Shown piece after piece: positions 60,156-64,000 of a DNA stretch of 64,000 nt (positions are counted from its first letter, which is position 1; the number at the start of each line of letters is the position of its first letter). Source of the DNA: Bacteroidales bacterium (GTDB taxonomy: Bacteria; Bacteroidota; Bacteroidia; Bacteroidales; P3); contig JAGCZH010000018.1 in assembly GCA_017960475.1 (NCBI GenBank), positions 124,001 through 188,000 of the forward strand, given 5' to 3'. The translations under genes were made by a program, and so were the position numbers. The notes below the pieces were generated by a model that had not been told where the DNA came from, ran no database searches, and worked only from the letters and a program-made list of their open reading frames with translations.

Positions 60156-60185
60156 CTAATTTTTTGCCGAATGGCTAAAAAAATG

Positions 60186-60193
60186 TATTTTTG
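60186..60193 (+). promoter_or_regulatory. promoter -7 box for the PqqD-like operon
   Basis: TATTTTTG matches TAnnTTTG and lies 30 nt before the ATG at 60224. It heads the four-gene run ending at 62816. Confidence 0.65.
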
Positions 60194-60223: not shown

Positions 60224-60829
60224 ATGTTGTTGATACGTAGGTTATTGATTATTGTGCTTTCGGTCGTTGCCTTGCTGTTTCCGTCTGTGGCAAATGCTCA
60301 AAACGAGACAGAGGCACTCCCCTCACGCAACGATTTTAAGTTCACATTGCTCTCGTTGGGCAGTGGTTCGACACGCATAACTTACGAACATGCTTTCACA
60401 CCGCTCAACAGTGCCGAGCTCACTCTTGGTATCGTAGGTCTTGGATGGGACTGGATGAACGACAGCGACCCGCATGGGCTGCTTGCCAAGTTGGCATATA
60501 AATGGCGTCTCATCCCTCAGCGCAATGCCGACAGCTGGCTGGCAGGCATGTATGTCAAACCCGAATTTGTGATATGTAACTTCAACTATGCCGGCCCGCG
60601 TTATCGTGGTGAGTTGGTCAAGTGTGCTGTGCAGACTTTCCAGATGGCGCTGCTTGCAGAGGTGGGCTACCAGCTTGTGTTGGAGTGGTTTGTCTTTGAT
60701 ATCTACGGTGGTCTCGGCCTCTCGATTGGAAGTGGCAACGAGAACAACTATTATCATAGTTTCATGCTTTTCCCCACCGATGGATTTCTGGCTTTCACCG
60801 CAGGATTTCGTATTGGCATAGCTTTTTAG
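60224..60829 (+). CDS. exported barrel-like protein, unknown
   Basis: I start this 201-aa protein at ATG 60224; a TTG five codons upstream is less likely. It has a signal peptide (about 1-26, ending VANAQ) and alternating barrel-type strands (FKFTLLSLGSGSTRITYEHAF, ELTLGIVGLGWDWMN, GYQLVLEWFVFDIYGGLGL). It ends FLAFTAGFRIGIAF, a typical outer-membrane C-terminus. It is the first gene of the run with a PqqD-like protein, a kinase-like protein and a peptidase-like protein. Function is unknown. Confidence 0.72.
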   Translation: MLLIRRLLIIVLSVVALLFPSVANAQNETEALPSRNDFKFTLLSLGSGSTRITYEHAFTPLNSAELTLGIVGLGWDWMNDSDPHGLLAKLAYKWRLIPQRNADSWLAGMYVKPEFVICNFNYAGPRYRGELVKCAVQTFQMALLAEVGYQLVLEWFVFDIYGGLGLSIGSGNENNYYHSFMLFPTDGFLAFTAGFRIGIAF

Positions 60830-60853
60830 AACCCGAAAAATAGCATTTCTAAC

Positions 60854-61120
60854 ATGAGAATCAAGGATAAATGCAAAATACGGCAAGTCGCTGGCGAGTC
60901 CGTCCTGATGATAGTTGGCCGCAATCCTGGCGATATGACCAAAGTTATGGCATTCAACGAAACGTCACTATATCTGTGGGATCAACTTCAGGGCCGTGAT
61001 TTTGAAATCGCTGATGTGGTCACTCTACTGTTGCAGCGATTTGATATTGATGAGACCACAGCCTTGAATGACGCCACCAGTTGGGTTCAAACCTTAAAGG
61101 ATCATTCCATTGTTTCGTGA
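60854..61120 (+). CDS. PqqD-family protein
   Basis: The 88-aa protein has the PqqD fold pattern, with GRNPGDMTKVMAFNETSLYLW and then helices FEIADVVTLLLQRFDID and DATSWVQTLKDHSIV. PqqD proteins hold a peptide substrate for a modifying enzyme. No precursor peptide or radical SAM gene is adjacent. The neighbours on either side are a barrel gene (24 nt) and a P-loop kinase-like gene (20 nt). Peptide binding is inferred from the family only. Confidence 0.78.
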   Translation: MRIKDKCKIRQVAGESVLMIVGRNPGDMTKVMAFNETSLYLWDQLQGRDFEIADVVTLLLQRFDIDETTALNDATSWVQTLKDHSIVS

Positions 61121-61140
61121 TTCACTTTCAATCTCAATCA

Positions 61141-62013
61141 ATGCATCTCAAAATAGCCGATCATATCATTTCAGTAGAGGGAGACAACGAACTGAGACTT
61201 TTGACCTCTTGTCGTGCTTTCGATCCTTTTGTCGTCAGTGACGTTGAGGAGGAGTGGAGTGTCCGTTTTGGATGCACTCATGCTACTTTCCCTTCCCAAG
61301 CTGAGATTCTCTATGATGTCGAGATTGAGGATACTGGCAATTATTGCCGCTTTCTATATTACGATGGCCGCTATGGAATGGAAATATACAATCGATCCAA
61401 TGGTCATCGACAGGTCTCTTTAAGCTACCTTCCGGGCGGTCGTTTGGTAGAAGCCTCTTCTTGTGAGGATTTTTCATCATTGCGATTTGCTCTTTGGTTT
61501 GCTGTATGCATGCTTGCAGTCCCCTCAATGGTGACATTTGTCCACAGTTCTGTTGTGGTATATCACGGCAATGCCGTGCTTTTCCTTGGAGAGTCGGGAA
61601 CGGGCAAAAGCACACATTCACGGCTTTGGCTCAAAAACATCGATGATGTACATCTCCTCAATGACGACTGTCCCGCCATTGCCTTTGACGCGCACACTTC
61701 TCGTCCTGTGGTATATGGCTCTCCATGGAGCGGCAAGACACAGTGCTACCGACAAGAGCGCTACGACATTGCCGCCATTGTTCGCCTTTCGCAGTCACAG
61801 ACCAACGCAATCCGTCGTCTTTCTGTCTCGCAGTCAATAGTCGCTCTTCAACCCTCTCTTCCCCCTGCTTTGTTTCTGAGCTCTTACTTCGACAATTACT
61901 TGTATCAAATTCTTTCCGACATCATCTCCAAGGTGCCACTCTATCATCTTCAATGCTTGCCCGACGACGATGCCGCCATCCTTTGTTTCAACACCATATT
62001 TCCTAGGCAATGA
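61141..62013 (+). CDS. HPr-kinase-like P-loop protein
   Basis: The 290-aa protein has a beta-rich N-terminal half. The C-terminal kinase-like domain carries the P-loop GESGTGKST (150-158), HLLNDDCPAI as a Walker-B-like segment and VYGSPWSGKT (191-200). It resembles HPr kinase/phosphorylase relatives found beside PqqD proteins in RiPP-like clusters, some of which phosphorylate serine in peptides. No HPr gene is present. I chose the ATG at 61141. Its stop overlaps the next gene as ATGA. Confidence 0.78.
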   Translation: MHLKIADHIISVEGDNELRLLTSCRAFDPFVVSDVEEEWSVRFGCTHATFPSQAEILYDVEIEDTGNYCRFLYYDGRYGMEIYNRSNGHRQVSLSYLPGGRLVEASSCEDFSSLRFALWFAVCMLAVPSMVTFVHSSVVVYHGNAVLFLGESGTGKSTHSRLWLKNIDDVHLLNDDCPAIAFDAHTSRPVVYGSPWSGKTQCYRQERYDIAAIVRLSQSQTNAIRRLSVSQSIVALQPSLPPALFLSSYFDNYLYQILSDIISKVPLYHLQCLPDDDAAILCFNTIFPRQ

Positions 62014-62816
62014 GTCAGAAGAGCATTTTGGGACCAAATGACGTCAATTCGTTTTTTGCTGTCGACATGATAAAACGCCTTAGCGAAGGACATGTTGTCA
62101 CTGTTATTTTCGGGGGCGACAGCATGCTGCCACTAATCAATGGGGGTGCTGATGTGGTTGAGTTAACCCCTTTCTCAGGTGAAATCTGTCGTGGTGACAT
62201 ATATCTGTTCCGTCACAATGGACGTCTTGTCATCCATCGCCTTCTTCGTATCCACGGTGATGACTTGCTGTTCCGAGGCGACAACAACCGCATTACAGAG
62301 CATGTCACATCCTCCGACATCCTTGCACGCCTTACGGCTGTGATTCATCCCGACGGCAGTATTGAAAAAACCGATACCCCACAATGGCGTAGACGTTCTT
62401 CGCAAGTTGTCTTGAGACGCAATTGTTACAATATTTTTGCGAATGTTCTTGGACATAAACAGCGTCTCAAACTCCGGTGGTTTTATTTCGTGTTTCTTCT
62501 ATTGTTGATGTGGGCTCCATTGGGTTTCGTCGCCATACCGCTCAACAATTTTGTTTTTGGTCTCCGCCTTGACCATCTTCTACACTCCACAGTCTACATC
62601 CCTTGTGCTCTTTTCATGTACGATTTTTTCTCACGGCGAAGGATACTATTATCATGGCTTTCCTCTCTTTTGTTGGCCTTTGTCACCGAGACGGGACAAT
62701 ATATGCTCCCTTACCGTGGATTTGACATCAACGATATGGTCGCCAATTTCCTGGGTGTCTCTTTAGGTTGTCTGTTGTTTATGCTTTTTATGCGTAAATT
62801 TTACAGAATCAGATAG
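62010..62816 (+). CDS. S26-type signal peptidase fused to a VanZ-like domain
   Basis: The 268-aa protein starts with a peptidase-like domain (about 1-115) having GGDSMLPLI with Ser38 and LVIHRLLRI with His76, plus LLFRGDNN. This is the Ser-His dyad pattern of the SipW/ER-type signal peptidases. From about 155 four hydrophobic segments follow with LDHLLHS, TETGQYMLPYRGFDINDMVAN and GVSLG, the conserved residues of VanZ-like proteins. No membrane anchor precedes the peptidase part, so the VanZ domain may anchor it. The fusion is unusual. It overlaps the kinase-like gene by 4 nt. Confidence 0.8.
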   Translation: MSQKSILGPNDVNSFFAVDMIKRLSEGHVVTVIFGGDSMLPLINGGADVVELTPFSGEICRGDIYLFRHNGRLVIHRLLRIHGDDLLFRGDNNRITEHVTSSDILARLTAVIHPDGSIEKTDTPQWRRRSSQVVLRRNCYNIFANVLGHKQRLKLRWFYFVFLLLLMWAPLGFVAIPLNNFVFGLRLDHLLHSTVYIPCALFMYDFFSRRRILLSWLSSLLLAFVTETGQYMLPYRGFDINDMVANFLGVSLGCLLFMLFMRKFYRIR

Positions 62817-63820: not shown

Positions 63821-64000
63821 ATGAAAGATATTGAAGATTTGATATACGAAGTACGTGGCGCCGCAATGGAAGTTTACAATTCGGTGGAGGAATTCAACCC
63901 CGTGTATTACAAGCAACTTCGTACATATTTGAAGTTGTTGCATAAAGATGTTGGACTTCTTATCAACTTCGGTGAATATGACTTCAAAAAGGGGATGAGA
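63821..64000 (+). pseudogene. GxxExxY-type protein with internal deletion, cut by window end
   Basis: An ATG at 63821 opens a frame that is still open at the window end (60 codons). It reads GAAMEVYNSVEEF and then directly YYKQLRTYLKLLHKDVGLLINFG. Both ends match the GxxExxY family. The middle of about 40-50 residues that normally separates them, with the GPGFLE and acidic-Lys core, is missing without loss of frame. It is probably a remnant, though a shortened functional form cannot be excluded. Confidence 0.55.

Follow-up and report, generated by a model that had tools for sequence, protein, structure and literature searches.

The operon considered here lies on a 64,000-nucleotide stretch of a Bacteroidales genome (the window, from contig JAGCZH010000018.1; the genome is G000 in our set) and encodes a barrel-like protein, a PqqD-family protein, a kinase-like protein and an S26-type protease fused to a VanZ domain. 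In our view it probably binds, phosphorylates and trims short peptides with a YxxP leader that are encoded elsewhere, in the manner of ribosomally synthesized and post-translationally modified peptide (RiPP) maturation. Gene content, invariant active sites, predicted folds, the peptides of the genome itself, the purifying selection acting on them and co-occurrence were observed directly, and as anatomy and a pattern of co-occurrence the finding is solid; the chemistry we infer. The first-pass annotation, made from the letters of the window, had suggested a reduced peptide-modification or phosphopeptide system. A phosphopeptide-type RiPP system is indeed the best reading, but one that is dispersed, with its peptides and a nucleotidyltransferase elsewhere in the genome, and not simply reduced.

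By analogy with the linear polyphosphorylated peptides (LPPs) of Bacillota, we hypothesize that the PqqD-family protein, as a RiPP recognition element (RRE), would bind the Tyr and Pro of the leader, that the kinase would phosphorylate the conserved Ser of an E-x-G-F-x2-S motif, and that the S26 domain, tentatively on the cytoplasmic side, would cut no more than about two residues from the G-F pair. Glycosylation of the phosphate may fall to a PF14907 nucleotidyltransferase and the family 2 glycosyltransferase (GT2) beside it, both encoded at a separate locus of this genome. Through its VanZ domain the protease would be held at the membrane, and that domain may also take on part of what an exporter does, or a role in lipid transfer. 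An orphan operon thereby becomes a testable pathway with named candidate substrates, and a role is proposed for a family of short Bacteroidales peptides. The arrangement suggests a RiPP layout of scattered precursors served by a single maturase in trans, and the fusion offers a handle on the biochemistry of VanZ domains.

A conserved triad of genes

The PqqD-family protein (88 aa; positions 60854–61120, + strand), a discrete RRE, scores 50.5 bits against PF05402 (cut-off 23.4), is the sole match to this family in its own genome, and has a profile that matches the TfuB1 structure 6jx3; it is predicted to be the leader-binding protein. The kinase-like protein (290 aa; 61141–62013, + strand, with its ATG at 61141) falls below every Pfam and NCBIfam cut-off, including that for the HPr kinase/phosphorylase of carbon regulation (TIGR00679, 12 bits against 240), and was assigned to the HPr kinase/phosphoenolpyruvate (PEP) carboxykinase fold by structural modelling and fold search. 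The model has a mean predicted local distance difference test score of 95.1, and its best matches in the PDB are PEP carboxykinases, followed by HPr kinases. In all 26 aligned relatives H135, the P-loop GESGTGKST (61588–61614, + strand) and an N-D-D motif are invariant.

The third protein (62010–62816, + strand) exceeds the Pfam cut-offs for both Peptidase_S24 (25.5 against 23.3 bits) and VanZ (40.8 against 30.1), and Pfam, model and fold together place a Ser-His-Asp protease domain at about residues 1–125 and the VanZ domain at about 150–268. All 25 aligned relatives keep residues S38, H76 and D91 of the protease domain, and the Ser-His pair, on whose retention the first-pass annotation had staked its proposal, is not lost; Ser38 (codon at 62121–62123, + strand) and His76 (62235–62237, + strand) are predicted to be catalytic. 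In fold the modelled domain is like LexA, its best single match, and like type I signal peptidases; it scores below the cut-offs for housekeeping signal peptidase I/SipW proteins (TIGR02227, 12.4 bits against 47; TIGR02228, 28.2 against 51.85). In the VanZ part, E-x2-Q and D-x-N-D-x3-N (residues 239–246; 62724–62747, + strand) are kept in 25 of 25 relatives, the D, N, D and N of the latter being invariant, and this second motif is close to the DxDDxxxN given for VanZ-1 (PMC12419801). The fusion protein has no N-terminal membrane anchor of its own, in that no hydrophobic stretch above threshold occurs before residue 153. Basic residues precede the first membrane helix and the model's third helix and recur at the C-terminus, so that by the positive-inside rule the protease domain would be cytoplasmic; this placement is tentative because the model has four VanZ helices and the hydropathy scan three membrane stretches. 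PDB sequence searches with the kinase and protease gave nothing useful, and a first scan of the genome contigs with the S26-VanZ protein found no relative.

Of the 190 family genomes, 108 have a kinase match; the window's genus (g1, 120 genomes) accounts for 106 of these. Gene neighbourhoods were compared at 61 places, namely the window and 60 of the 110 other matched places, and counts of the triad rest on tblastn because the hexamer gene caller, trained on long open reading frames (ORFs), misses some kinase genes. PqqD, kinase and S26 genes occur together in 56 of the 61 neighbourhoods, and a GT2 gene in 41; PqqD, kinase and S26-VanZ are a conserved triad. One neighbourhood (L077) holds an additional protein that clusters with PqqD and was not caught by the single-sequence search. 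In genome G009, kinase and S26 matches fall in a single ORF with PqqD directly after it (L055:8930–10515), an arrangement that links the functions of kinase and protease. A full cluster of the type known for the LPPs of Bacillota (discussed below) was considered for this locus and rejected, the genes after PqqD being of riboflavin, LptE, penicillin-binding protein and ClpX type. At L054 and L057 (G009:C113 and G036:C14) a kinase-like gene stands with neither PqqD nor S26 matched in its vicinity.

Beyond the family, the S26-VanZ profile matches 101 of 295 genomes of the order, and among the matches listed only that of G000 spans both halves. Among the listed loci that match through the S26 half, 11 of 12 have a kinase or PqqD gene within a short stretch, and in wider regions a PF14907 nucleotidyltransferase and an ABC exporter stand beside several of them; Pfam bears out the PF14907 assignment in L158 and also in L052, the latter from a family genome of another genus. 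Near the kinase, the best 80 of 463 relatives, which include gut and rumen genomes and some loci cut by contig ends, carry S26 in 76 cases, PqqD in 47, ABC in 46, a PF14907-like gene in 16, a VanZ fusion in 21 and a local peptide in 22. PqqD, kinase and S26 are recurrent neighbours both within the family and outside it, as the first pass had hoped a tabulation of neighbours would show. No PF14907-like gene lies within 8 kb at any of the 21 VanZ-fusion loci, some of which are cut by contig ends, and a peptide was found in the fetched stretch, for which there are no matched control windows, at 1 of these 21 loci against 21 of the 59 non-fusion loci.

These neighbourhoods also bear on a different explanation, that the operon acts on a protein. 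A cytoplasmic protease of LexA/signal peptidase fold tied to VanZ, together with a kinase-like sensor, would then control envelope or polysaccharide synthesis, and the co-occurrence with peptides described below would reflect nothing more than shared ancestry. VanZ domains have been linked to exopolysaccharide and peptidoglycan genes (PMC12419801), and the adjoining GT2 genes and the LexA-like fold would suit such a role. We nevertheless regard it as improbable, since PqqD joins kinase and S26 in nearly every neighbourhood, the gene set is met again in other families, in company with ABC and PF14907 genes, and the presence of peptides tracks the kinase in two sets of genomes.

Candidate substrates in the same genome

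The first-pass annotation had found no clear precursor ORF, and adjacent to the operon none is convincing: when the window and the 60 neighbourhoods were scanned loosely for YxxP, the ORFs picked up in the window all looked no better than chance. Conserved short YxxP peptides are nevertheless encoded at other loci of the same genome, and the precursor is likely to be distant rather than missing. At several loci of the order a short ORF has Y-x2-P near its N-terminus, and a first profile of nine such ORFs matched two peptides of G000 that it did not itself include, one of 62 aa on contig C33 (L173:1501–1689; E 3.4e-5) and one of 59 aa on contig C38 (L174:1486–1665, minus strand; E 0.006). The former precedes a gene that we take to be WecA-like, and the latter a gene for an 816-aa lipoprotein-like protein. 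Both share the leader pattern Y-x2-P-x9-E-x-G-F-x2-S, and both are under purifying selection, with nonsynonymous divergence (dN) from their G077 orthologues of 0.15 and 0.11 against synonymous divergence (dS) of 0.86 and 0.79 (dN/dS ~0.18 and ~0.14).

With a wider profile, 110 of the 190 family genomes had matches at E 0.01, one of them as many as 23. No cut-off was passed in a Pfam scan of three peptides or an NCBIfam scan of seven; one relative (P0318) is named 'Lasso RiPP family leader peptide-contain...' in its source. The anatomy was compared in 82 distinct peptides, of which 81 could be anchored (L216 could not, and was left out of motif counts). Tyr and Glu are 13 residues apart in 80 of the 81, and a Ser stands three residues after the G-F pair in 71 (65 of 71 non-seeds), against a Ser frequency of ~10% further along the core. 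Cores are acidic (mean net charge ~–4) with a median of 26 residues, and 73 of 81 peptides have an aromatic residue within the last six.

Downstream of the 52 of 82 peptides examined in this respect, a same-strand ORF was present in 42 cases, with a gap of <150 bases in 35 and a strict lipobox in 22 of the 42; a few of these ORFs score as non-coding. Such an arrangement would also suit a reading of the short ORFs not as precursors but as regulatory leaders, acting in cis on the translation of the lipoprotein genes that follow, an explanation to which we give the least credence. It sits poorly with the protein-level constraint in the two orthologous pairs, with the fixed spacing from Tyr to Ser, with the absence of the peptides together with the operon, and with the first G000 peptide, which precedes a gene for a non-lipoprotein. 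When ten downstream proteins were scanned, one Fimbrillin-like Mfa_like_1 match fell below its cut-off and two DUF285/leucine-rich repeat matches lay above theirs. The lipoprotein-like proteins after the YxxP peptides of L189 and L210 have PARCEL/DUF285 or BspA-type leucine-rich repeats, and other proteins so placed share a W-x2-GDQI-like motif near the N-terminus.

The peptides and the kinase occur together. In the 120 genomes of g1, including the seed genomes G000, G013 and G081, both were found in 101, the kinase alone in 5, peptides alone in 5 and neither in 9 (Fisher p 3e-7). Among g1 genomes at least 85% complete, 66 of 68 kinase-positive ones have peptides, against none of seven kinase-negative ones (p 1.8e-8); in these seven, PqqD had no match in G024, G032, G054, G092 and G110, and a match only inside a longer ORF in G027 and G083. 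Across the order (295 genomes, of which six peptide seeds, G000, G445, G366, G301, G208 and G417, were dropped), a strong kinase match (E<1e-30) was present in 12 genomes, and 6 of these carried peptides, against 5 of the 277 others (p 5e-7); here 54 genomes with weaker kinase matches were scored as kinase-negative. PF14907 behaves similarly in g1, being matched in 92 of 106 kinase-positive and 4 of 14 kinase-negative genomes. G000 itself has one PF14907 gene, on contig C6 and away from the operon, and a glycosyltransferase-like gene overlaps it (L346). Two PF14907 matches lie at identical contig positions (G032:C46:2965–3711 and G030:C108:2965–3711), which suggests shared or contaminating contigs.

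Another view is that the YxxP peptides are real but are substrates of other enzymes, the operon being a different RiPP system with a precursor of its own that has escaped recognition. No peptide adjoins the operon of the window, only one of the 21 VanZ-fusion loci has a local peptide, and several genomes that have peptides match neither the kinase nor PqqD. We think this very improbable, given that G000 has a single PF05402 match and that more than a third of the non-fusion loci carry a peptide in the fetched stretch.

A number of observations also count against maturation of the YxxP peptides by the operon. The leader measures 19 residues from Tyr to Ser here and 18 in LPP, so that the position of the cut carries an uncertainty of one residue or more, and it may follow G or F. 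The peptide profile was built from motif-bearing peptides, which favours finding the motif again, and it holds seven database proteins whose source genomes are unknown, so that the correction for seeds is partial. The co-occurrence tests ignore relatedness, and co-loss in g1 may amount to few events. The five g1 genomes with peptides and no kinase are 68–80% complete; outside them, G182 and G183 (97–99% complete) have one peptide match each (E 1.5e-7 and 5e-5) and no PqqD or kinase, and G354 and G479 likewise have a peptide match without a kinase or PqqD match. Conversely, the nearly complete G040 and G071 have the kinase without a peptide match, as do 6 of the 12 order genomes, seeds excluded, whose kinase match is strong. 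Of the 80 kinase loci, some of them cut by contig ends, 33 are without PqqD within 6 kb and 58 without a local peptide. Finally, no ABC exporter lies within 8 kb at the 21 VanZ-fusion loci, an exporter not having been sought elsewhere in the genome.

The last point invites an extension of the proposed maturation that we think unlikely, namely that one trans-acting maturase serves a family of peptide–lipoprotein units dispersed over the whole genome, at most 23 in any one genome, the S26-VanZ protein coupling leader removal to lipid transfer and the VanZ domain (lipocone, VanZ-1-like, with invariant active-site residues) linking the phosphopeptide to a membrane or polysaccharide carrier. Lipid transfer by VanZ, if true, would explain the missing exporter beside the operon, and would give Bacteroidota a novel class of phosphopeptides, anchored to lipid or glycan and displayed at the surface.

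Operon layout and flanking genes

The ORFs confirm that the four genes are tightly spaced or overlapping, with gaps of 24 and 20 bases between the barrel-like, PqqD and kinase genes and a 4-base overlap between the kinase and S26-VanZ genes. The first gene (60224–60829, + strand) encodes a protein of 201 aa with a signal-peptide-like N-terminus. While the other identities proposed at first pass hold, namely PqqD, the kinase-like fold and the Ser-His S26 peptidase with VanZ, the outer-membrane-barrel label is weak; it is unproven because the protein has no Pfam family, and its one NCBIfam match lies far below cut-off. The barrel gene was rejected as a core part of the system, being beside the triad in 17 of 61 neighbourhoods, and is a local accessory addition. 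The single promoter suggested for all four genes is plausible, in that a TTG-N19-TAnnTTTG match, which we take to represent the Bacteroidetes-type consensus, lies upstream of them at 60164–60193 (+ strand). The match is weak on its own because the pattern occurs 13 times across the 64 kb (both strands, overlapping starts counted), including inside the operon.

As noted at first pass, no radical SAM (S-adenosylmethionine), cyclodehydratase or Asn-synthase-like gene adjoins the operon among the genes of the window and the neighbourhood gene calls. Nor were PqqA, PqqC or PqqE of pyrroloquinoline quinone biosynthesis seen among the adjacent genes scanned (no genome-wide search was made), or an Asn-synthase-like macrolactam synthetase or B2 protease beside the RRE in the window or neighbourhood gene calls (no family or genome-wide search was made). 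The triad (60854–62816) has a hexamer coding score much below that of its neighbours, and it is fast-evolving: between the window and G077 the GT2 neighbour is 99% identical, the kinase 76% and S26-VanZ 72%. At 63821–64000 there begins a gene, presumably GxxExxY-like, with a shortened N-terminal region, that is cut off by the end of the window; similar genes (c36) adjoin GT2 in some other genomes.

Comparison with known systems

Literature searches that combined Bacteroid- terms with these genes or with polyphosphorylated RiPPs returned only a rumen lasso peptide survey (PMC7533575), and a review of RiPP leader proteases (PMC10885120), searched by term, names none of S24, S26, signal peptidase, PqqD and VanZ. 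One point of contact with radical SAM systems is a TIGR04133 radical SAM/SPASM gene, above cut-off, that overlaps PqqD and lies directly before it and the kinase in G184 (L053:10075–11411), with small lipoprotein-like genes upstream, a radical SAM version of the PqqD–kinase pair. This is one locus of another genus, whereas none was seen beside the operon of the window.

Lasso peptide systems of the paeninodin and pseudomycoidin type share with the present one a PqqD-type B1 protein, an HPr-kinase homologue, a nucleotidyltransferase and, in relatives, an ABC exporter (PMC8498205), as well as a leader of the [Y/W]xxP type (PMC13381572). They differ in that the operon has an S26 protease, and no B2 transglutaminase-like protease or Asn-synthase-like cyclase was seen beside it. 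In pseudomycoidin the nucleotidyltransferase is described as adding hexoses to the phosphate (PMC8498205), and the PF14907 protein of contig C6 with the overlapping glycosyltransferase-like gene could do likewise.

The closest parallel is with the LPPs of Bacillota (Popov et al., Nat Commun 2026, PMC13381572). As described there, the RRE LppB and the HprK-like LppK act with LppS, a SipW-like peptidase whose S29A, H68A and D93A variants are inactive, with the NTP transferase LppN and with the MsbA-like LppD, on precursors of the form YxxPxVLxHQxIxFETxxS; LppK polyphosphorylates core Ser3, and LppS cleaves after the Thr of FET and requires LppB. The operon has the discrete PqqD-fold RRE, the HprK-like kinase and the Ser-His-Asp leader peptidase, the genome supplies an NTP transferase and YxxP leaders that end near a conserved Ser, no macrolactam cyclase was seen beside the operon, and some relatives have polysaccharide-type neighbours. 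On the other hand, the host belongs to Bacteroidota, the protease is fused to VanZ, the candidate precursors and NTP transferase are in trans with no adjacent exporter, and the leader ends in E-x-G-F-x2-S rather than F-E-T-x2-S. LppS, LppK and LppB were compared with the operon proteins by description. From these likenesses we infer that the operon works like LPP; we do not file it as a strict member, because neither an NTP transferase nor an exporter was found in the cluster (0 of 21 fusion loci within 8 kb for each). The paper confines LPPs to Bacillota, and its main text nowhere contains 'bacteroid' (PMC13381572). The supposition of the first pass that the system is peculiar to Bacteroidales does not stand, since the Bacillota LPPs are of the same general kind, and an LPP-type gene set that in print is confined to Bacillota (PMC13381572) is here extended to Bacteroidota.

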